A stretch of DNA of 41,250 nt, from contig DAIEHR010000310.1 of the NCBI GenBank assembly GCA_027353465.1, forward strand, positions 1 to 41,250. Reading direction: 5' to 3'. This DNA comes from Acetobacteraceae bacterium (GTDB lineage Bacteria; Pseudomonadota; Alphaproteobacteria; Acetobacterales; Acetobacteraceae). The notes beneath the pieces were generated by a model, which was not told where the DNA came from, did no database searches, and worked only from the letters and a program-made list of their open reading frames with translations. A program made the position numbers and the translations under genes. Shown one piece after another: positions 10,301 through 19,785 of this stretch (positions are counted from its first letter, which is position 1; each line of letters starts with the position of its first letter).

Positions 10301-10555
10301 ATGACCAACGACGAAATCCTGGAAGGGTTGACCGACGTTTTTAGAGATGTGTTCGAAGACGCTACGATCGTCTTGACGCGGGAGACTACGTCAGACGACA
10401 TCGCCCTGTGGGATTCCATGTCGCAGGTCACGCTCGTTGTTGAGATCAATCATCGCTTCAACGTGAAACTTCGATCCGCCGACATGGAGGATATTCGCAG
10501 CATTGCCAATTTAATGGACATGATCAGGGTGCTTTCGCTCATCCCGACACGCTGA
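10301..10555 (+). CDS. acyl carrier protein
   Basis: An 84-residue acidic helical protein of the acyl/peptidyl carrier family. WDSMSQV (Ser about 39) is the phosphopantetheine attachment site, in the place of the usual DSL. The N-terminal helix EILEGLTDVFRDVFED and the later VVEINHRFNVKL are typical of stand-alone carriers that serve special acyl systems. AGGGA lies about eleven bases before the ATG. It is followed after 17 bases by an MBOAT acyltransferase and then by an SGNH protein, so its cargo is likely an acyl group for transfer across or in the inner membrane, as DltC does for DltB. The identity of the acyl group is unknown. Confidence 0.9.
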   Translation: MTNDEILEGLTDVFRDVFEDATIVLTRETTSDDIALWDSMSQVTLVVEINHRFNVKLRSADMEDIRSIANLMDMIRVLSLIPTR

Positions 10556-10572
10556 TCCGCAGCCCAAAGTCA

Positions 10573-12177
10573 ATGCTGTTCAGTTCTTACATCTTCATAT
10601 TTGCCTTTATGCCTGTCGCGCTGGCAGGGTTTCACCTGATGTGCAATTTCGGCCGTCGCCCCGCGGCCGTTTGGCTGGTTCTGGCCTCGATCTTTTTCTA
10701 TGCTTGGTGGAATCCACCGTTTGTGATCATGCTGGTCGCTTCCATTGGCTTCAATTACACAGCAGCCGAAGCCTTAGGCGCCACCACAACCCGCCCGCGA
10801 GTCCAGAATGCGATCCTGGTCTTGGCGATCGCCGCGAATGTGCTGGCGTTAGTCTATTTCAAATATCTTGCCAGCATCATCGATGCGATGACCGGCTTAG
10901 GGCTTATCAACCTCAAGACCCCTGATATCGTTCTGCCGCTCGGAATATCGTTCTTCACCTTTACGCAGATCGGATACCTGGTCGATATTAAGCAGTCTAT
11001 TGCAAAAGATCGTGGGCTCATAAATTATATATTGTTCGTAACCTTCTTTCCACATCTCATCGCCGGACCAATACTGCATAACAGGGAGATGATGCCGCAA
11101 TTCGGCAATGAGGCAACATATCGCTTTTCCGCCGAAAATCTTGCGATTGGCATTTCAATCTTCACCATCGGCATTGCTAAAAAATGTCTTTTTGCCGACC
11201 CGTTGTCCGCAGGGGTGGGATTGGGCTTCGGCGCTGCGTCCAGCATGCCGCTGTTCGGAGCCTGGAACGCGGCACTTTGCTACTCGCTCCAGCTCTATTT
11301 CGATTTTTCCGGCTACTCGGACATGGCAATCGGCCTCGCCCGGATGTTCAACGTGCAGTTTCCGGTAAATTTCAATTCGCCTTACAAGGCAGCGTCCATC
11401 ATTGAACATTGGCAGCGTTGGCACATAACTCTGTCGCGCTATCTGACACTGTATCTCTATACTCCTATCGCAATGTCTGTCACCAGCTGGCGTAACGACC
11501 GTGGACTCGGGATCTCCAAGACCGCGCGCGAAACGCCAGGGGGATTTGCCGCCATGGTCGCCTTTCCCACCATTACGACAATGGGACTGGCGGGCATATG
11601 GCACGGAGCCGGGTTACAGTTTCTGATCTTCGGCCTGTTGCATGGTATCTATCTGGTCGGTAACCACCTATGGCGCATCGTGTTGCCACGCCCACAAAAT
11701 CGAGCAAAAGATAGCAAGCTGACTCTCTTTGCGAAGATCTTTTTGACCTACATGGCGGTGGTGTCGGCCTCGGTCTTTTTCCGAGCCGATTCGGTCAGCT
11801 CGGCGCTTTCCATATTTGCTGGGATGATCGGCTTGCACGGTGTGGAGGCGGTTCCGTTACCGGCCGGGCTGCCGCGGGGCGGCCTGGCATCGCTGCCGGT
11901 GCATGGCATGACGGTCGTGGTCTCGCTGGTCGATTTCGTGTCACAGGCAGGGCATGTACTTTGGATGATGTGCCTATACGGGATCGTTTTCGCTTTGCCG
12001 AATACGCAACAAATCATGCACCGCTTTTCGCCCGTCATCGGACGGGTGCAACCAGGCCGATTGTCGCAACTCGCGTGGCAACCCAGTCGCGGCTGGGCCG
12101 TGACGACGGGCATCGCAGCCGCGGTCAGCATACTGGCTATTGGGGGCACCTCAGAATTTCTTTACTTCCGGTTCTGA
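10573..12177 (+). CDS. MBOAT-family O-acyltransferase (AlgI/DltB-like)
   Basis: A 534-residue multi-pass inner-membrane protein of the membrane-bound O-acyltransferase family. The start LFSSYIFIFAFMPVALAGF and the LVYFKY region match AlgI-type members. HWQRWHITLSRYL (His 284) and GIWHGAGLQFLIFGLLHGI (His 344) are the two conserved histidine regions; His 344 is the expected catalytic residue. It probably moves acyl groups from the cytoplasm to an acceptor on the periplasmic side. The ACP gene is directly upstream and an SGNH-type protein gene directly downstream, the same partners as in Dlt and alginate acetylation systems. The acceptor may be the exopolysaccharide made by the downstream locus, or a lipid; the sequence does not say. 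Confidence 0.93.
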   Translation: MLFSSYIFIFAFMPVALAGFHLMCNFGRRPAAVWLVLASIFFYAWWNPPFVIMLVASIGFNYTAAEALGATTTRPRVQNAILVLAIAANVLALVYFKYLASIIDAMTGLGLINLKTPDIVLPLGISFFTFTQIGYLVDIKQSIAKDRGLINYILFVTFFPHLIAGPILHNREMMPQFGNEATYRFSAENLAIGISIFTIGIAKKCLFADPLSAGVGLGFGAASSMPLFGAWNAALCYSLQLYFDFSGYSDMAIGLARMFNVQFPVNFNSPYKAASIIEHWQRWHITLSRYLTLYLYTPIAMSVTSWRNDRGLGISKTARETPGGFAAMVAFPTITTMGLAGIWHGAGLQFLIFGLLHGIYLVGNHLWRIVLPRPQNRAKDSKLTLFAKIFLTYMAVVSASVFFRADSVSSALSIFAGMIGLHGVEAVPLPAGLPRGGLASLPVHGMTVVVSLVDFVSQAGHVLWMMCLYGIVFALPNTQQIMHRFSPVIGRVQPGRLSQLAWQPSRGWAVTTGIAAAVSILAIGGTSEFLYFRF

Positions 12178-12217
12178 ATTGTCCCCGGAGTTGTAAGGTA
12201 TCGAGGGAGGTGCCGAC

Positions 12218-13336
12218 GTGAGGACTAAAAGTTCAGATCGCCTGCTGGCATCGATGGCCCGAGATCCGGGCGGCAGCGAGCAGGGATGTAACGGACAGTC
12301 GGCAGCGTCCAGATTTCTTGCCTGGTCTTTGGCCGTTTTCACGATCTCCTTCGCGCTGGTCTGGATCTACGTTGCGGCAATGCCCATGGCGTTCCTTAGT
12401 CGCGACTATCCACTGTGGATCGCCAAGCGAACCATGCTCGACGAGTGCCGGTTGGGCTCGGTTGCGGTTTTCGGCGACAGCCGCACCTTGGCGGGAACAG
12501 TACCAAGCTTGCTGCCGGTGCCGGTCACGAACTTCGCGATGTCGGGAACCTCTCCGATTGAGACATTTTTTGCCGTTCAGCGCGCGCTCCGCTGTCCGAA
12601 TCCGCCGAAACTCGTCGTGATCGCCCATGGCGCAATGAAATTCATGTCGGATAGCGATTATTGGAATTTCAGCGCCCGAACTGGCTTCCTTGACTACAGC
12701 GATATGCGAGCCGTGGACAGGGACGCGGCGAGACTGGGCGACGATGAAATCGCAGTCTTGCGACACGGCGACCAGCTTTCACCGGTACTGCGGGAGGCGT
12801 TGTTTGCCATGCGTTTCCCGCCATTCTATTTCGATAGTCTGGTAAACGGTTTCATCCTGGGGCGGTGGCGGCATAATCTAAGCGCAATGCACGCTGCGCT
12901 ATTGTCATCGGGCCATGCGTTGTTCGGGGCTGCCAATGGTTCCAGCGAGGTTACTAGCGAAGCGTTGGCAACGACATACGCGACGTCCCCCCTGATTGAC
13001 CTGTACTTCTCTCGCACGATCGCGTTATTGGCGCAGCGAGGCGTTCCGGTCATCGTCCTTTCAATGCCAATGAATCGGGCGACCTACGAGCGAATGCGGC
13101 CGTCGGTCAGCGGAGCCTTCGCTGCCTATCTTCAGGAGAAGTCGAAGCAATTTTCAAACTTGCGTATCGTCGGGCCGACCGCCCCGTGCTGGCCCGACAG
13201 GTTCTTCGGGGACGCTTGGCACTTCAACGCTGACGGTGCGGCGGCATTTAGCGCCGAACTTGGTGGTTTGCTGCGCGACCTGCTCGCCGGGGCGGACGTC
13301 AGAGAGCTGCCGGATCGCTGCACCCTGACCGGATGA
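12218..13336 (+). CDS. membrane-anchored SGNH/DltD-like protein
   Basis: A 372-residue protein with one transmembrane segment (about residues 34-55) and a large C-terminal domain, predicted periplasmic. FGDSRT (Ser 88) is an SGNH block I nucleophile motif, and GDAWHFNADG (Asp 332, His 335) is the matching DxxH block V. This is the arrangement of DltD, AlgJ/AlgX and related partners of MBOAT proteins. The start is a GTG at 12218, with GAGGGAGG seven bases upstream. It lies 40 bases after the MBOAT gene. It probably takes the acyl group from the MBOAT pathway and passes it to the final acceptor, or removes it. The low similarity typical of this family prevents naming a substrate. Confidence 0.82.
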   Translation: MRTKSSDRLLASMARDPGGSEQGCNGQSAASRFLAWSLAVFTISFALVWIYVAAMPMAFLSRDYPLWIAKRTMLDECRLGSVAVFGDSRTLAGTVPSLLPVPVTNFAMSGTSPIETFFAVQRALRCPNPPKLVVIAHGAMKFMSDSDYWNFSARTGFLDYSDMRAVDRDAARLGDDEIAVLRHGDQLSPVLREALFAMRFPPFYFDSLVNGFILGRWRHNLSAMHAALLSSGHALFGAANGSSEVTSEALATTYATSPLIDLYFSRTIALLAQRGVPVIVLSMPMNRATYERMRPSVSGAFAAYLQEKSKQFSNLRIVGPTAPCWPDRFFGDAWHFNADGAAAFSAELGGLLRDLLAGADVRELPDRCTLTG

Positions 13337-13518
13337 CCCGATCAGAAGAGTCGGATTATTACCCTTACGATCCATGGTTCGTGTGGCCATCGACCGAAAG
13401 GATGTCGTTACATCTCTGACGCCGATATATATTCTGCTTCCAGACACAGGGTTTATTCAAGTATTTGTGTGACAACGACAATGGTTTCGTAGAATCGTCA
13501 CGGGGGCCCAACTGTACG

Positions 13519-15099
13519 ATGTCGATCGATCCTCTATCCCCCTCGGTTATGCATCCAGTAAAATTCCAGGGTTGCTTTGGATGGTTGCATACGGCCGCTG
13601 CGAGCGATACCGCGATCGTTCTGTGTTCAGGCCTGCGACGGGACGCCAGCAACGCCCACCGCCCATTCCGTATCCTGGCTGACCAGCTCGCCGCTGAAGG
13701 GTATCCGACACTGCGGTTCGACTATATGGGCACGGGCGATTCATGCGATGCCGAAGGGGGCGAATACTGGGCAATCTGGCTTGGAAACGTCCTGGCGGCG
13801 GCGGATTACGCGCGCGCCGTCACGGGTGCGCGACAGGTCGTGCTGATCGGATTGCGCATCGGCGCCGCGCTGGCGACGCAGGCGGCAGCGGAACGCGACG
13901 ACGTCATCGGGCTTATTCTGCTGGACCCGATCTTGCGCGGCCGGGCTTATTTAGCGCAACTCATGGTCGAGGCCCGTTTGAGGACTCACGAGCCCCCGGA
14001 TTTTCGAGACGGCCTGCTGCTCGATGAGCTTTGTCTGACCGGTGAAACAGTCAGGCGTATCAAGCAGCAGGACTCACGAGAGGTTCTACCGCCGCAAGGA
14101 TGTTCGGTCGCCATTTTCAGCCAAGCCCAATCATCCAGCATAGCGGGCTGCGTGGAGACATGGCGCAGCGCGGGCATTTCGGTAACCAGCCAGGCTTTTA
14201 GCGGGCTGGAATCGCTGCTACAGCCGGCACATCTTGCGGGTCAATCGCCGCCTGACTTCATGCCGATCGTGTCATGGCTACGCGCCGGATTTCCAGTCGA
14301 GCAAATAGACAAGACCACGGCTGTCACAGCGCCGCCCGCGGTGATGCTCCGGCATGATGGCTGCGTCGAAACCCCCCTGCGCTTTGGGCAACAGTGCCGG
14401 TTATTTGGTATTCTGTGCCGTCCCGACAGCGGAACCCAGTCCGATTTCGCGGTCATCATTTGCAATCCGGGCGGCGATCCGCATCACGGCTACGCCCGCT
14501 TCTCAGTCGAGTTTGCCCGCCGGTTGGCGGCAAGCGGCATCACCTCGCTCCGGTTTGATTTTGCCGGGCTTGGCGATAGTGTCCCTTCGTCCGAACAACT
14601 CGACGACGACAGTTTGGATGTGTTCACTGTTGACCGTAACGCGGATGTCGCCGCTGCCCTCGACGTTCTTGAGCCGCTGGGATTCCGCCGCTTCGCCCTT
14701 CATGGGCTTTGCTCAGGCGCTTTCCATGCCTTCCAAGCCAGCTTAGTGGATACCCGGGTTGCCGCTTTGCTGCTGATCAACCTGCCATGGTTCAGTTTGC
14801 GTCGCGAAAAATCCTCGCCCGACAGTTTTGCGCGGGCGGCGATGACCGCTCTCGCGGACCGGCGGGTCGGGCGCTTTCTGCTGTTCGCCGAGGGGGATGC
14901 TGGCATCCGGCCGCTCGAACAGCATTTCGGTCCGGCTGGCGTTGACCTGGAGGGTTCGGGCGATGTCGAGGTGTCAATCGTATCCGGCTTCGACCATGAT
15001 CTTACGGGCCACGCAATGCGCAGGGCTGCCGCGGACCGGATGATTGCGTTTCTGCTGCGCGCACCGTCGCTGCGTGAGTACCGTTCGGATGTGGCCTGA
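13519..15099 (+). CDS. tandem double alpha/beta-hydrolase
   Basis: About 526 residues with two alpha/beta-hydrolase units. Unit 1 (about 20-250) has TLRFDYMGTGDS and the nucleophile elbow GLRIGAAL, where Arg replaces the catalytic Ser, as in exosortase-A-associated hydrolase 2-type proteins. Unit 2 (about 275-525) has NPGGDPHHGYARFS, SLRFDFAGLGDS and the elbow GLCSGAF, with Cys 398 as possible nucleophile. Elsewhere these two types are separate neighbouring genes beside acyl ligases and carrier proteins; here they are fused. A TTG at 13465 is also in frame, but the ATG at 13519 looks better; neither has a strong ribosome-binding site. It may release or proofread acyl groups on the ACP. The family link is from motif memory. 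Confidence 0.75.
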   Translation: MSIDPLSPSVMHPVKFQGCFGWLHTAAASDTAIVLCSGLRRDASNAHRPFRILADQLAAEGYPTLRFDYMGTGDSCDAEGGEYWAIWLGNVLAAADYARAVTGARQVVLIGLRIGAALATQAAAERDDVIGLILLDPILRGRAYLAQLMVEARLRTHEPPDFRDGLLLDELCLTGETVRRIKQQDSREVLPPQGCSVAIFSQAQSSSIAGCVETWRSAGISVTSQAFSGLESLLQPAHLAGQSPPDFMPIVSWLRAGFPVEQIDKTTAVTAPPAVMLRHDGCVETPLRFGQQCRLFGILCRPDSGTQSDFAVIICNPGGDPHHGYARFSVEFARRLAASGITSLRFDFAGLGDSVPSSEQLDDDSLDVFTVDRNADVAAALDVLEPLGFRRFALHGLCSGAFHAFQASLVDTRVAALLLINLPWFSLRREKSSPDSFARAAMTALADRRVGRFLLFAEGDAGIRPLEQHFGPAGVDLEGSGDVEVSIVSGFDHDLTGHAMRRAAADRMIAFLLRAPSLREYRSDVA

Positions 15100-15241
15100 C
15101 ATCGCGGTGCTTGTCGCTACGGTGGATAATGAGATTGGCGTCGATCCAGTCGGTGAATTGGAAATGGCAATAATGGACCGAAACCAAGTGGCATCGCGGA
15201 AGATCGCGGTCTCAGGAAAGCGGGTGCGGCGTCATGCGTAA
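15089..15241 (+). pseudogene. possible C-terminal remnant of AMP-forming acyl ligase
   Basis: A 50-residue frame that overlaps the end of the hydrolase gene and the start of the reductase gene. It reads DIAVLVATVDNEIGVDPVGE and later ends in VASRKIAVSGKRVRRHA. The pattern of a VAVLV strand, an acidic loop, a helix, and then SGKxxR near the end is that of the C-terminal subdomain of AMP-binding synthetases (usual form LPRTxSGKxxRxxL). The large N-terminal domain is absent. Its position, between a carrier-linked hydrolase and a FabG-like reductase, is where a DltA- or exosortase-type acyl ligase would be expected. The match is short, and chance similarity is possible. Confidence 0.38.
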
Positions 15242-15968
15242 CATTCTGGTCACGGGCGGAACCCGCGGGCTGGGCCTGGGGATTGCTCGAAGGCTGGCGG
15301 CATCCGGCTTCAGGGTTGTGGCGATTGCACGAACGAGGACCGAGCGGTTCGCTAGCGCAGAATTGGCGGTTGAAACCTGCGACAAGGGCCGCCTGCATTT
15401 TCGCTTTGGCGACCTTACAGACCTCGCGGTCCTCCCGGGAATGGTCAAAGAGATCCGCTCTGAGTTCGGTCCAATCTACGGGCTGGTCAACAATGCCGGC
15501 GTCGGCACGGCGGGTGTATTGGCAACCATGAAGGATACGGACCTTGAGCACCTTGTACGCCTGAATGTCACGGCGCCGCTGATGCTGACCAAGTATGTGA
15601 TCCGATCGATGATGAGTCAGGGCGACGGACGCATCGTCAATATCTCGTCGATTGTTGCCAACACAGGTTACAGTGGTCTTTCGGTCTATAGTGCGACCAA
15701 AGCATCGCTCACCGGCTTCACGCGGTCGTTGGCGCGGGAAGTCGGCCCGCTAGGTATTACGGTCAACGCAGTTGCCCCGGGATTCCTCGATACCGACATG
15801 ACGCATACCCTAACTCCTCCCGAGCGGGCCAAAATCACCCGGCGGAGTGCATTGCACCGCATGGCGGAGATCGAGGATGTGGCAAACATGGTTGACTACC
15901 TCGTCAGCGAAAAGGCGCGCAACATTACTGGTTCGGTGATGACTGTGGACGCGGGAAACAGTGCCTGA
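15234..15968 (+). CDS. SDR-family 3-oxoacyl-ACP reductase-like protein (FabG-like)
   Basis: A 244-residue classical short-chain dehydrogenase/reductase. TGGTRGLGLG (7-16) is the nucleotide-binding glycine motif, NNAG (86-89) follows, and Asn 111, Ser 138/139, Tyr 152 and Lys 156 (VYSATKAS) form the catalytic set. The C-terminal GSVMTVDAGNSA is typical of FabG-type enzymes. It likely reduces a 3-oxoacyl thioester with NADPH. It follows the hydrolase gene with a small remnant between them, and with the ACP at 10301 it may shape the acyl group used by the MBOAT. It could instead be a housekeeping-like SDR with another substrate. Confidence 0.88.
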   Translation: MRNILVTGGTRGLGLGIARRLAASGFRVVAIARTRTERFASAELAVETCDKGRLHFRFGDLTDLAVLPGMVKEIRSEFGPIYGLVNNAGVGTAGVLATMKDTDLEHLVRLNVTAPLMLTKYVIRSMMSQGDGRIVNISSIVANTGYSGLSVYSATKASLTGFTRSLAREVGPLGITVNAVAPGFLDTDMTHTLTPPERAKITRRSALHRMAEIEDVANMVDYLVSEKARNITGSVMTVDAGNSA

Positions 15969-16194: not shown

Positions 16195-16575
16195 ATGCTA
16201 AGGGCGACATTGGCACTTCATGCCGGATTCGACATGGCTCCGGCGACCCGAGCAGTCGCTGTAACGATGTACCAGACTGTGGCTTTCGGGTTTGACGATG
16301 CCGAGAGTGTAGGCAACCCTGCCGGAAACATCGCCGACCTGGCCGTTCTTGCAGAGACTGCCCACCGGCATGGAATACCGCTAGTGGTCGATAACACGGT
16401 TCCCACCCCCATTCTGTTGCGCCCGATCGAGCATGCCGCTGATGACGCAATCCGGTTGAGCATCGGAATCGAAGATGTCGCCGATATCGATGCAGTCCTT
16501 GAAGCCGCGGCCTCTGGCCTGGACCAGCCCGCGGTGCAGCATCAACACCAACTCTCCCCCATGGTGGTCCAATGA
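16195..16575 (+). pseudogene. metY: O-acetylhomoserine sulfhydrylase (MetY) with two in-frame internal deletions
   Basis: A 126-residue frame made of three collinear pieces of MetY, normally about 430 residues. Residues 5-36 (LALHAGFDMAPATRAVAV, YQTVAFGFDD) are the N terminus. Residues 37-80 (GNPAGNIADLAVLAETAHRH, LVVDNTVPTPILLRPIEH) are the middle of the PLP domain. Residues 84-109 (IRLSIGIEDVADIDAVLEAA) are the C terminus. Missing between them are the substrate-binding region and the PLP-binding lysine loop, so it cannot be a working sulfhydrylase. The frame is kept across both junctions. Its stop overlaps the metA start as ATGA, so it may now serve mainly as a leader that couples translation to metA. 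Confidence 0.8.
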
Positions 16576-17606
16576 GCGGAAGCGGCCAGGATCATCGCGG
16601 TGGGAGTTCCCGGGGCGGCGTCCCGTTGTCAATCGGGCTGGTCAACAACGCCTCAGATAGCGAGTTGAGGGCGACTGAGGTTCAGTTCTTGCGGATGTTG
16701 CGGGCCGCATCCAGAGGCTTCGACTTGAGTTTCAGGCTGTTCAATTGTCCAGTGGTCCCGCGTTCCGCCGCTGCCCTCGACGCTTCCGGGAAGCCTTATG
16801 CGGACATCGAAGAGCTGTTCGACACGCCCCTGGATGCGTTGGTTGTCACGGGTATGGAACCGTCGGGAAGGACGCTGCTGAGCGAACCGATATGGGACGA
16901 CATCACCAGGCTCGTGGATTGGGCCGGGGAACATTCGGTTCCGGTGATATGGTCTTGCCTTGCCGCGCATGCCGCGGTCCTTTACCTTGATGGACTCGAC
17001 AGATCCTTGCTTCCTAAGAAGTTGTCGGGAGTTTTTGCCTGTAACCTTGTCCAGACAGACCATCTTCTGGCGACGGGACTGCCCGCGCGGTGGGCCAATC
17101 CCCATTCACGCCTGTATGACGTTTCTCGTGCGGGGCTCCTGGCGAATGGTTATCAAATACTGTCTCATTCGGATGAAGCTGGGGTCGATGTATTCCTGAA
17201 GGAGCAATGTGCGCCATTCCTGTTCTTCCAGGGGCATCCGGAATATGCGGCTGATACGTTGTTAAGCCTGTACAGGCGCGACGTGAATCGATTTCTTGTC
17301 GGTGACAGCAATGACTTCCCGTCTGCCCCGCGCAACTACTTTGATCCTGCAACAGAAGCAGCGCTGGCAGCCGCTGGAGACCGTGCCAGGCAGACCAAAC
17401 GTGGCCGGCGAGATATTGAAGCGATAAGCAGCCTGATACCGGCTGCCGTCACTCGCAATCTCTGGGAGCAATCGGCGGTTACCCTCTGTGCGAACTGGCT
17501 GACGCTTGTCGCGCGGAGCGAGCGGCGCACGCGAAGGCGAGGAATTGTGTCCGCGAGGCCCGTTTGGTCCAGAAACGTGACCGGGGGCGCAAGTTTGATC
17601 CAATGA
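16572..17606 (+). CDS. metA: homoserine O-acyltransferase of the MetA family
   Basis: A 344-residue member of the MetA (homoserine O-succinyl/acetyltransferase) family, which activates homoserine for methionine synthesis. LVVTGMEPSG is the conserved loop, Cys 129 in WSCLAAHAAV is the expected nucleophile, and His 222 and Glu 224 in FQGHPEY complete the catalytic set. The ATG overlaps the stop of the shrunken metY frame; a later start near residue 17 would also fit the family. MetA proteins can use either succinyl- or acetyl-CoA, and I cannot decide from sequence. With the sulfhydrylase partner destroyed here, it needs a metY, metZ or metB elsewhere, or has been recruited to another role in this cluster. 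Confidence 0.9.
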   Translation: MSGSGQDHRGGSSRGGVPLSIGLVNNASDSELRATEVQFLRMLRAASRGFDLSFRLFNCPVVPRSAAALDASGKPYADIEELFDTPLDALVVTGMEPSGRTLLSEPIWDDITRLVDWAGEHSVPVIWSCLAAHAAVLYLDGLDRSLLPKKLSGVFACNLVQTDHLLATGLPARWANPHSRLYDVSRAGLLANGYQILSHSDEAGVDVFLKEQCAPFLFFQGHPEYAADTLLSLYRRDVNRFLVGDSNDFPSAPRNYFDPATEAALAAAGDRARQTKRGRRDIEAISSLIPAAVTRNLWEQSAVTLCANWLTLVARSERRTRRRGIVSARPVWSRNVTGGASLIQ

Positions 17607-17766
17607 GGATCAGCGCCCCAAAGCCGGCGGCCCTGTGGTCCGGACGCGCCGTTACAAACGGTCATACCACCGATGAGGATGTCCGGGCTCTAGCGCGCGT
17701 CCTGCAATACCCCGGGCTGTCAAGCGTTGTATGACTCCGTTGCAAAATAGTACAGGAACCCCACCG

Positions 17767-18405
17767 ATGGATTTTGTGCAGGATGTTGCGTATAGGCAAG
17801 TAATCAACGAGATTTGTGACCTGAAATGGAGTAAGTTGACGACCGACGACATGGTGTCGGTGGCTTGGGGGTATTACTATTTTTCTATCCAGTTCCGCGA
17901 GAATCTGGAGATTGCCCGTGAACTGTACCCCGACGATGCCAAGCTTCAGCGGCTTGAGCAGGAGGAATGTGACACTAGCAACCTCTCGCCTTGGCCAGGC
18001 GTCGCTATGCCCGGCGAAAAAATGAACCATGATGAGTTCATGTACCGAGCATTGGCACTTTCGCCGATCCCGGTGGAAAAATCGGCGCGGCTAAAGTCAA
18101 TTGGAGCGGAATACCTGGCGGAGAGCCGCGCCGCCGATCCAATCTCGTGCGCACTCAGTATCGCCAGTTATGAAGACGGTGGGTTGGAGAGCGTGTTCAC
18201 CGCAATCCTGACCGCTCGGCACTGGGACAATGCTTTGCTCCAGGCCTTTCGGCACTTCCTTTCAGAGCACGTCCGCTTCGATAGCGATCCCGATCAGGGC
18301 CACGGCGCGCTCAGCCGGCATATGGCACCGGACGACCGGGTCCTTGGGCTTTGGGAGGCGTTTCGGGACATGCTCGTCAGAAGCGCTCCCGCACTTTTGG
18401 ACTAA
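17767..18405 (+). CDS. heme-oxygenase-fold (TenA/DUF3050-like) protein
   Basis: About 212 residues, all-helical by composition, without signal peptide or membrane segment. The C-terminal stretch FRHFLSEHVRFDSDPDQGHG has the EHxxxD(x6)H spacing (His 168, Asp 172, His 179 from this start) that resembles a metal-ligand helix of heme-oxygenase-like diiron proteins and DUF3050. NHDEFMYRALAL may be an earlier helix with ligands. An ATG at 17731 is in frame but has no ribosome-binding site; AGGAA about nine bases before 17767 supports the shorter form. It lies 160 bases after metA. It may be an oxidase or oxygenase working on a small molecule, but the full ligand set is not certain and no substrate can be named. 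Confidence 0.55.
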   Translation: MDFVQDVAYRQVINEICDLKWSKLTTDDMVSVAWGYYYFSIQFRENLEIARELYPDDAKLQRLEQEECDTSNLSPWPGVAMPGEKMNHDEFMYRALALSPIPVEKSARLKSIGAEYLAESRAADPISCALSIASYEDGGLESVFTAILTARHWDNALLQAFRHFLSEHVRFDSDPDQGHGALSRHMAPDDRVLGLWEAFRDMLVRSAPALLD

Positions 18406-18636: not shown

Positions 18637-19785
18637 ATGAACCGTCGAGGTTTCATTGTCGCGGCAGGGCTTCCCTGGTCAACCGCGCTTGGCGTTCATG
18701 CCGCGGATAGCCACGTCTCCGGCGAACCGAGCGGGGCTGCCACGCCCGAGACGTCCGGGCTGCTACTTCCGGTTGGCGCCGTGGCCGACGGCGCAAGCCA
18801 TCCACTATCGTCGCGGTTCGGTAACTTGGACGCCGCACGCAAGCAATATCCCCACGCCACCACAATGGTCGATGAGATCGATTGGTGCGCGCTTCAGGGG
18901 GCGATTAACGCGGCTGACCAGCGTGGTGGGGGGGCGGTGTATGTTCCTAATACCGGCAGAGCATACCGGCTCAACCGCGCTTTGACGGTAAACCCTAATC
19001 GCGTCACGGTTCGCGGTGATGGAAGCACGCTGGACTTCAGGACGCTGGAGTTCGCAGAGAGCGCGATCAGGTTCAAAGCGGACGGCGCCCCTGCCTATGG
19101 TCATGAGCGGCACCTGTTTGAAGGGTTTGAGATCATTGGACCCGGACGAAATTTGCACGTCGCCGGCGTGCTGTTCCGGACCGACACCGCGGGGTTATCG
19201 AGCCGGGCACAACTACAGGACTGTGCTATTCATGGCTTCTTTGTTGGCATTCTGTTCGGCGATCGCGCATACGGCATTGGGTTTTCTCATGTGTCGGTCT
19301 TTGATTGCGCTTTCTGCATTCAGGCCCCCCCCAATCTGCTGGACGCCGGGGAGACGGTATCGTTCTCCCAATGCTATTTCTTTAACTCCCAATGCCTCAT
19401 TTCCAACGCCGGAGCTTTTGATCTGAAGTTCTTTGCCTGTTCGCTGGACTATGCCGGACGATTGGTGCGGGATAACAATGGTATCATTGACCTGGTTGGC
19501 TGCCGCCTGGAAATATCGCCGCCGGTCGACCCGCCGCTCCAGAATACCAATGGCGGCCGGATTAACATGTTCGGGGGCTTCTTCCTCATTAACGGCCCTC
19601 GGGACGAAGTACACGCCCAGGAGATATTTTCTCTGGCTGACCCGAACACAAGTGTGCATCTTTTCGGTGTGGCAGGTTGGAACTGGCGCACACGCTCCGG
19701 CAAGTTGACAAAGGGACCCGGCAAAATTCATTGGTATGAGGGCGTCGATATCACGGAGGCCCCGCCCAGCATTCGACATCCGTGA
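18637..19785 (+). CDS. exported right-handed beta-helix protein (polysaccharide lyase/hydrolase-like)
   Basis: A 382-residue protein that begins MNRRGFIVAAGLPWSTALG and ends its signal at about VHAADS; RRGFI resembles a twin-arginine motif. The mature part has ALQGAINAADQRGGGAVYVP and the following YRLNRAL, the usual opening of pectate-lyase-like parallel beta-helix proteins. Many short strands follow with turns such as DNNGIIDLVGCRLEIS and NGGRINMFGGFFL. Such proteins bind or cut polysaccharides in the periplasm or outside. Its position beside an exopolysaccharide locus suggests a role in trimming or modifying that polymer. No catalytic residues are clear. The ribosome-binding site is weak. 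The 231 bases before it hold no gene I can support. Confidence 0.72.
   Translation: MNRRGFIVAAGLPWSTALGVHAADSHVSGEPSGAATPETSGLLLPVGAVADGASHPLSSRFGNLDAARKQYPHATTMVDEIDWCALQGAINAADQRGGGAVYVPNTGRAYRLNRALTVNPNRVTVRGDGSTLDFRTLEFAESAIRFKADGAPAYGHERHLFEGFEIIGPGRNLHVAGVLFRTDTAGLSSRAQLQDCAIHGFFVGILFGDRAYGIGFSHVSVFDCAFCIQAPPNLLDAGETVSFSQCYFFNSQCLISNAGAFDLKFFACSLDYAGRLVRDNNGIIDLVGCRLEISPPVDPPLQNTNGGRINMFGGFFLINGPRDEVHAQEIFSLADPNTSVHLFGVAGWNWRTRSGKLTKGPGKIHWYEGVDITEAPPSIRHP

Follow-up and report, generated by a model that had tools for sequence, protein, structure and literature searches.

The window analysed here comprises 41,250 nucleotides of contig DAIEHR010000310.1 from an Acetobacteraceae bacterium (assembly GCA_027353465.1). 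Between positions 10301 and 15968, it contains a cluster that combines an acyl carrier protein (ACP), an MBOAT acyltransferase and an SGNH protein with a fused double hydrolase and a short-chain dehydrogenase/reductase (SDR). The five open reading frames (ORFs) described in this interval by a first-pass annotation of the DNA are all present on the + strand, with the domains claimed for them. The features of the locus, including gene remnants and downstream genes, are listed below (C306 is another contig of the same genome, L numbers designate loci used for comparison, and PLP stands for pyridoxal phosphate).

10301..10555, + strand: ACP1, the carrier predicted to feed the MBOAT, with Ser39 in the motif WDSMS (PP-binding 8e-6, above cut-off)
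10573..12177, + strand: MBOAT acyltransferase, DltB-like, with a C-terminal FLYFRF and residues P332 and F353 (PF03062 4.5e-18)
12218..13336, + strand: putative membrane-anchored periplasmic SGNH acyltransferase, DltD/PatB-like (GDS, DxxH, transmembrane-like segment)
13465..15099, + strand: fused double alpha/beta-hydrolase, HYD (Abhydrolase matches in each half)
15101..15157, + strand: remnant of ACP2, a second carrier, its serine gone (tblastn 11/16 identical to the ACP2 of C306, E 0.025)
15234..15968, + strand: FabG-like SDR (adh_short 1e-53)
16195..16575, + strand: remnant of a MetY-like PLP enzyme (tblastn pieces; PF01053 2e-16)
16572..17606, + strand: MetA-like homoserine acyltransferase (PF04204 1e-48)
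17731..18405, + strand: 224-aa protein of no recognised family (adjoins the cluster in L039 and L040; partly present at C306)

We consider this cluster likely to be a working variant of the Dlt/PatAB-type acyl export systems. Its MBOAT retains both WH histidines (284 and 344), ends with an FxYxxF-type motif and adjoins an SGNH protein, the combination that marks MBOAT-SGNH acyl-export pairs. Two PDB sequences are related to it at E <= 0.001 and both are DltB (about 1e-21); its score against the DltB equivalog TIGR04091 is below the cut-off (168 bits for a cut-off of 375). ACP1 is located 17 bp upstream of the MBOAT gene and is 52-58% identical to the MBOAT-adjacent carriers of L030, L039 and L040. 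More generally, the FxYxxF-type C-terminus is present in 88 of the 89 MBOATs examined, 25 of which have a carrier gene on the same strand within 300 bp.

These MBOATs come mainly from a search of the class, in which homologues (E <= 1e-70) were detected in 53 of 385 genomes, own genome counted. Three of the 67 MBOAT places belong to the own genome and the three weakest (G484, G333 and G403) were left out, leaving 61 in 60 regions. The neighbourhoods covered also include 20 of the 22 SGNH places, four loci of named records, two more MBOATs of the window's genome and the hydrolase loci. All loci were annotated using profiles derived from the window and from its relatives, and L031, which duplicates the record of L054, was omitted.

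The phylogenetic tree of 87 MBOATs is split into groups of 32 and 55 with a support of 100/96, the window protein belonging to the clade of 32 (a group read from a first tree and later supported by a careful one). A same-strand carrier gene is present within 2 kb in 30 of the 32 clade members and in one of the 55 other MBOATs (L123); within 300 bp, the corresponding numbers are 24/32 and 1/55. The rows of this tree are a non-random sample, since the loci of the family were selected for the resemblance of their SGNH or MBOAT proteins to those of the window, and L171, L173 and L175 for that of their hydrolases. The tree omits L128 (broken C-terminus) and L052 (contig edge), and L097 was trimmed to its last 540 residues. 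With a first labelling, which counted a carrier or any visible loader (34 rows, L122 and L146 being included for nothing but an AMP-ligase match), 7 changes are required on the tree, as compared with a mean of 27.2 after shuffling. The association of the trio in relatives, which the first-pass annotation had singled out for checking, is thus non-random, and this linkage supports its idea that carrier, MBOAT and SGNH protein form a Dlt-like unit for acyl transfer, set among the polysaccharide genes of a Gram-negative bacterium.

The clade is also marked by two residues located near His344 in the sequence, where MBOATs outside the clade mostly have Asn and Trp. Pro332 is found in 32/32 clade members, as well as in L107 and L123, which are both near a carrier, and in none of the 53 remaining MBOATs. 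Phe353 is present in 31/32 clade members and in L107, most others having Trp. The MBOAT of L107, outside the clade, has an FkbH gene and a carrier gene within 3 kb, the latter on the opposite strand. The genome of the window (G000) encodes two further MBOAT-SGNH pairs of the clade, one with a carrier on contig C293 (L037, 2747-5731) and one without on contig C70 (L057, 2913-5490).

The enzymes that could load the carriers differ between loci. FkbH-profile matches lie within 4 kb in 14 of the 30 clade members that are linked to a carrier, an AMP ligase is present in three (L030, L039 and L040), and one, L118, has an amino-acid:carrier ligase as its only loader. Curated cut-offs are exceeded by the FkbH proteins encoded beside the carriers of L033, from a Telmatospirillum MAG, and L056 and by the amino-acid:carrier ligases of L035 and L171; calls at other loci rest on profiles built in this analysis. 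In a polyketide pathway, FkbH-like proteins form glyceryl-ACP from 1,3-bisphosphoglycerate, according to passages of PMC7489565. The clusters of L171, L173 and L175 (3053-11009 in L171) group an MBOAT, an FkbH protein, a carrier, a second carrier, an amino-acid:carrier ligase and a double hydrolase, so that glyceryl and aminoacyl loaders occur together. Two ORFs upstream of the ACP, of 605 aa in L048 and 1018 aa in L047, were considered as loaders and rejected, as they have no Pfam match and look like spurious frames. The window's genome has a single FkbH gene, on the 3.5-kb contig C321 and without tie to the window locus, and nothing beyond a weak partial match to an amino-acid:carrier ligase.

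The three relatives with an AMP ligase, of which L030 is Acidisphaera sp. S103, encode it in an operon of the order ACP1-MBOAT-SGNH-HYD-ACP2-ligase-SDR, continued in L039 by MetY, MetA, a PLP decarboxylase and the 224-aa protein. Searches of the PDB point to no particular substrate, MenE, oxalyl-CoA synthetase, beta-aminoacyl-ACP synthetases and others being found at similar distance and none at E <= 1e-25. DltA is not among the best 25 NCBIfam matches of the ligases of L039 and L040, and one relative's ligase weakly matches the exosortase-linked ligase TIGR03098 (65 bits for a cut-off of 592). The lack of a ligase in the window is thus no design feature of this branch, as three close relatives have the gene in the operon along with a second carrier and the window's genome retains an intact copy on C306.

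The SGNH protein is the weakest of the five identifications by sequence, with no Pfam match above cut-off, DltD included. It has a single N-terminal hydrophobic, transmembrane-like segment, the Ser, Asp and His residues are all present, and the GDS and DxxH motifs are invariant in five aligned sequences. A structural model (pLDDT 77, five sequences) retrieves no PDB fold at E <= 0.001; its first match, a weak one, is DltD (E 1.4e-3, probability 0.99, TM 0.38, rmsd 12.9). Homologues (E <= 1e-5) are present in 18 of the 249 genomes of the family, own genome counted. In L044 (8923-10669), a homologue directly adjoins a carrier gene, with an MBOAT neither between nor near.

The two halves of the double hydrolase resemble the hydr2_PEP (TIGR03101) and hydr1_PEP (TIGR03100) families, with scores below the curated cut-offs (99 for 203 bits and 97 for 168 bits, respectively). 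Arg131 occupies the nucleophile place in the N-terminal half and the C-terminal half contains Cys416, Asp478 and His511, all these residues being invariant in the 15 double hydrolases that were aligned out of 20 loci. The other five (L165, L169, L174, L176 and L177), checked at the elbows only, have Arg in 5/5 and Cys in 4/5 cases. Proteins of the single types follow the same pattern: Cys is present at the same elbow in six of seven hydr1-type loci (L182 gave no readable Cys elbow and L184 is slightly below the family cut-off), and Arg in the first-half (hydr2) type of L178, L179, L180, L182 and L184, those of L180 and L182 through weak matches. The likeness to exosortase accessory genes noticed in the first-pass annotation is therefore real at the level of this Arg/Cys signature. 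Double hydrolases (E <= 1e-15) are encoded in 17 of the 249 genomes of the family, own genome counted.

All six other clusters seen to contain an MBOAT and an intact double hydrolase (L030, L039, L040, L171, L173 and L175) encode two carriers. From this and the Cys triad, we propose that the double hydrolase would act as a carrier-to-carrier acyltransferase, moving the acyl group from a synthesis carrier to an export carrier. In passages of PMC7966384 and PMC8748450, CmaE and CysB are presented as shuttles between carriers, and SyrC as an aminoacyl transferase related to them. The double hydrolase could also be an editing thioesterase that clears misloaded carriers, a possibility that we regard as real, if doubtful. 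In Pfam and the PDB, it is related to alpha/beta-hydrolases, for the most part named hydrolase or esterase; double hydrolases are also found in MBOAT-free clusters, beside an amino-acid:carrier ligase or a peptide-binding protein; and the protein of L176 (9774-11444) has Gly where the others have Cys (1/20). The Cys found instead of Ser in 19/20 double hydrolases and in most hydr1-type proteins, the two carriers of the six MBOAT clusters and the activities described for CmaE, SyrC and CysB argue for the transferase. The nucleophile of these three enzymes is a cysteine.

Two observations concern other contexts of these genes. In L165 (12625-16574) and L006 (14-3234), where no MBOAT is in view, the ACP2-ligase-SDR set or the double hydrolase adjoins a solute-binding protein of family 5 (SBP_bac_5), and these clusters appear to represent a second use of the module. 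In L168 (7873-9054), a gene resembling acyl-CoA dehydrogenases lies between a carrier and an amino-acid:carrier ligase, near a double hydrolase.

Downstream, the window encodes glycosyltransferases, a sugar transferase, Wzz, an export protein, a Wzx-type protein and two AT3 acyltransferases. L030 has retained, two genes from ACP1, a copy of the first of these polysaccharide glycosyltransferases with 73% identity. Because of this adjoining cluster and of the glycosyltransferase kept in L030, the exopolysaccharide that these neighbouring genes produce is the most likely acceptor. An acceptor of another nature (lipid, peptidoglycan or lipopolysaccharide) seems rather unlikely to us. Many carrier-MBOAT-SGNH loci have no polysaccharide gene recognisable by the few profiles used, and PatAB acts on peptidoglycan, as passages of PMC12148441 state, but the continuation of the window into a Wzz, export, Wzx-type and glycosyltransferase cluster speaks for an exopolysaccharide. 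The absence of an exosortase, also put forward in the first-pass annotation, holds for the 25 ORFs scanned in the region 10301-41138 (ORFs left of 10301 being outside the scan) and fails at the genome scale: contig C348 (16008-16751), away from the locus, has an exosortase match of 211 bits, above cut-off.

The window has lost several genes of the operon found in its relatives. No match to the relatives' ligases is detected in it at E <= 1, in agreement with the earlier statement that no intact ligase is present, and the PLP decarboxylase has no match either. ACP2 is reduced to a remnant of about 19 codons between HYD and SDR, where it is expected; with an E-value of 0.025, this call leans on position plus similarity. 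The ACP2 proteins of relatives are themselves below the Pfam cut-off (E 0.0006-0.024, five tested) yet retain the serine motif. A tblastn search with the full-length MetY of L039 recovers residues 1-37, 149-196 and, weakly, 398-419 (E 1e-11, 6e-20 and 0.18); these pieces (16195-16575) result from internal deletions and keep one frame. The SDR has its catalytic Ser and YxxxK motif and is 60-72% identical to those that follow ACP2 and the ligase in L030, L039, L040, L162, L165 and L166.

A second gene set, of the order MetY-MetA-decarboxylase-ACP2-ligase-SDR, is located on contig C306. Its ligase is 56% identical and is the only profile match of the genome at E <= 1e-20 (E 3e-252). The match has no internal stop; the stretch matched in the identity search contains one TGA, which probably lies before the start codon. 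With an intact ligase, ACP2 and SDR on C306 and the genes of the window, the genome holds the full set, split over two places, and the two sets may cooperate. The source assembly is fragmented and 77% complete, and the deletions of the window may reflect an assembly fault. The MetY- and MetA-like enzymes are conserved nearby (MetA follows MetY in L030, L039 and L162 and has a match in L040), but the MetA of C306 has the score expected of a regular methionine gene (388 bits for a cut-off of 358), so that a part of these enzymes in making the acyl group is no more than a possibility.

Four genes deleted or in pieces (ACP2, ligase, decarboxylase and most of MetY) could indicate that the locus is a decaying relic, ACP1, MBOAT and SGNH being leftovers of a pathway in course of loss, and no double hydrolase (E <= 1e-15) is present in the four other genomes of the genus included in that search. 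We nevertheless consider a relic unlikely, since ACP1, MBOAT, SGNH, HYD and SDR are all of full length and retain the residues expected of them, intact equivalents of the missing genes are present on C306, and 11 other carrier-linked clade MBOATs likewise have no loader in view. An ordinary O-acetyltransferase of the AlgI/PatA type, fed by acetyl-CoA beside an unrelated carrier gene, would have the same usual MBOAT-SGNH pair and C-terminal motif, but is very improbable in view of the carrier linkage (30/32 versus 1/55), the distinct clade and the distinct residues near the WH His344.

The cluster thus probably encodes, with some room for doubt, a carrier-protein-fed acyl export pathway that works like Dlt. 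An AMP ligase (on C306 here, in the operon in relatives) would activate a small acid and load it on ACP2, on which the SDR would reduce the acyl group. The cytoplasmic double hydrolase would take this group onto Cys416 and pass it from ACP2 to ACP1, in the manner of the CmaE, SyrC and CysB enzymes. By homology to DltB/DltX and PatA, the MBOAT would transfer it from ACP1 across the membrane onto the Tyr in the FLYFRF motif at its C-terminus, and the SGNH protein would finally receive it on the GDS serine and pass it to the surface glycan.

Besides L176 and the MBOAT-free clusters, several observations weigh against this pathway. L057, in the window's own genome, is a clade MBOAT-SGNH pair with no carrier within 2.9 kb upstream and the true exception to the linkage, the other clade member without carrier, L041, being located where a contig ends. 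Twelve of the 30 carrier-linked clade members, window included, have no recognised loader in view (some of these loci stop at contig ends), and the window copy, having neither ligase nor ACP2, would require the C306 set in trans. Three of the 20 SGNH loci (L038, L044 and L049) have no MBOAT detectable by tblastn at E <= 1e-3, and the double hydrolases of L034 and L164 have no recognised carrier or ligase alongside. The structural model of HYD, built from two sequences, was too poor to be used (pLDDT 43). Finally, neither the acyl group nor the acceptor can be read from the sequence.

Other features of the window can be mentioned briefly. The 224-aa protein has matches in L039 (E 4e-88), L040 (E 2e-26) and L162 (E 1e-14). 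It matches no Pfam family at 0.01 and nothing in the PDB better than E 0.26; an impression by eye that it is haem-oxygenase-like was dropped, as PDB and Pfam gave no support. A 382-aa protein (18637-19785) begins with a signal-like segment, matches no Pfam family and, judged by eye, resembles a beta-helix polysaccharide enzyme. No promoter was found by consensus upstream of ACP1.

In a wider perspective, the clade could correspond to a distinct Gram-negative branch of MBOAT-SGNH exporters, marked by Pro332, fed by carriers instead of CoA and served by loaders that belong to different, unrelated families (FkbH for glyceryl groups, AMP ligases, and amino-acid:carrier ligases resembling tRNA synthetases), in which Arg/Cys double hydrolases, like the exosortase-linked pair, would transfer acyl groups from synthesis to export carriers. 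We advance this broader view tentatively, as a plausible proposal that may well need revision. If it is true, a single exchangeable pathway would be used by bacteria to attach glycerate, amino acids and other acids made to order to their surface glycans, and bacterial polysaccharides could acquire esters other than acetyl, for instance glycerate, in this way. Pro332 could serve as a marker to recognise carrier-linked members, and the exosortase-linked hydrolases, hypothetical equivalogs in NCBIfam, would gain a concrete functional proposal. In the open library searched, we found no literature treating MBOAT, SGNH and acyl carrier proteins jointly; for FkbH with MBOAT, the passages retrieved concern natural products and no polysaccharide, and none of the matches listed combines FkbH and exopolysaccharide. 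The novelty of the system is thus provisional, as the literature search was confined to this one library.

Among known systems, the Dlt pathway of Gram-positive bacteria (DltA, DltC, DltB, DltX and DltD), which D-alanylates teichoic acids, has a matching gene set, as the first-pass annotation had noted: the two share a carrier protein, a DltB-related MBOAT, an SGNH protein whose first, weak fold match is DltD, and an acyl-Tyr shuttle motif. The parallel drawn there does not extend to gene order, the classical operon being dltXABCD. ACP1 is a carrier by PF00550 (above cut-off) and scores below the DltC equivalog NF003464 (21 bits for a cut-off of 68). The shuttle motif is fused to the C-terminus of the window MBOAT, whereas Dlt has it in the separate peptide DltX. 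The locus further differs by the lack of DltA, by a cluster with a second carrier, a double hydrolase and an SDR, and by its polysaccharide context in a Gram-negative bacterium.

PatA/PatB and other MBOAT-SGNH O-acetylation pairs have in common with the window a C-terminal FxYxxF in the MBOAT and a separate SGNH protein. The PatA/AlgI branch has no carrier and uses an acyl-CoA donor, whereas the window MBOAT is carrier linked, has P332 and F353 and is predicted to use another donor. MBOAT/SGNH pathways other than Dlt are said to be without a similar carrier protein in passages of a 2025 article (PMC12148441), a rule against which the carrier-linked clade speaks. FkbH proteins beside carriers in clade loci recall the glycerate loading of FkbH-ACP systems, but clade carriers feed an MBOAT-SGNH pair and not a polyketide synthase, and the window locus has no FkbH. 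The hydr2_PEP/hydr1_PEP pair likewise has Arg in the nucleophile position of its first protein and Cys in the second, whereas the window hydrolases are fused, score below both cut-offs and have no exosortase in the locus. Finally, CmaE, SyrC and CysB, as characterised in the passages cited above, would resemble the double hydrolase in moving acyl groups between carriers, a likeness of proposed function; the window protein differs from them as a fused pair with Arg at the nucleophile place of its first half.

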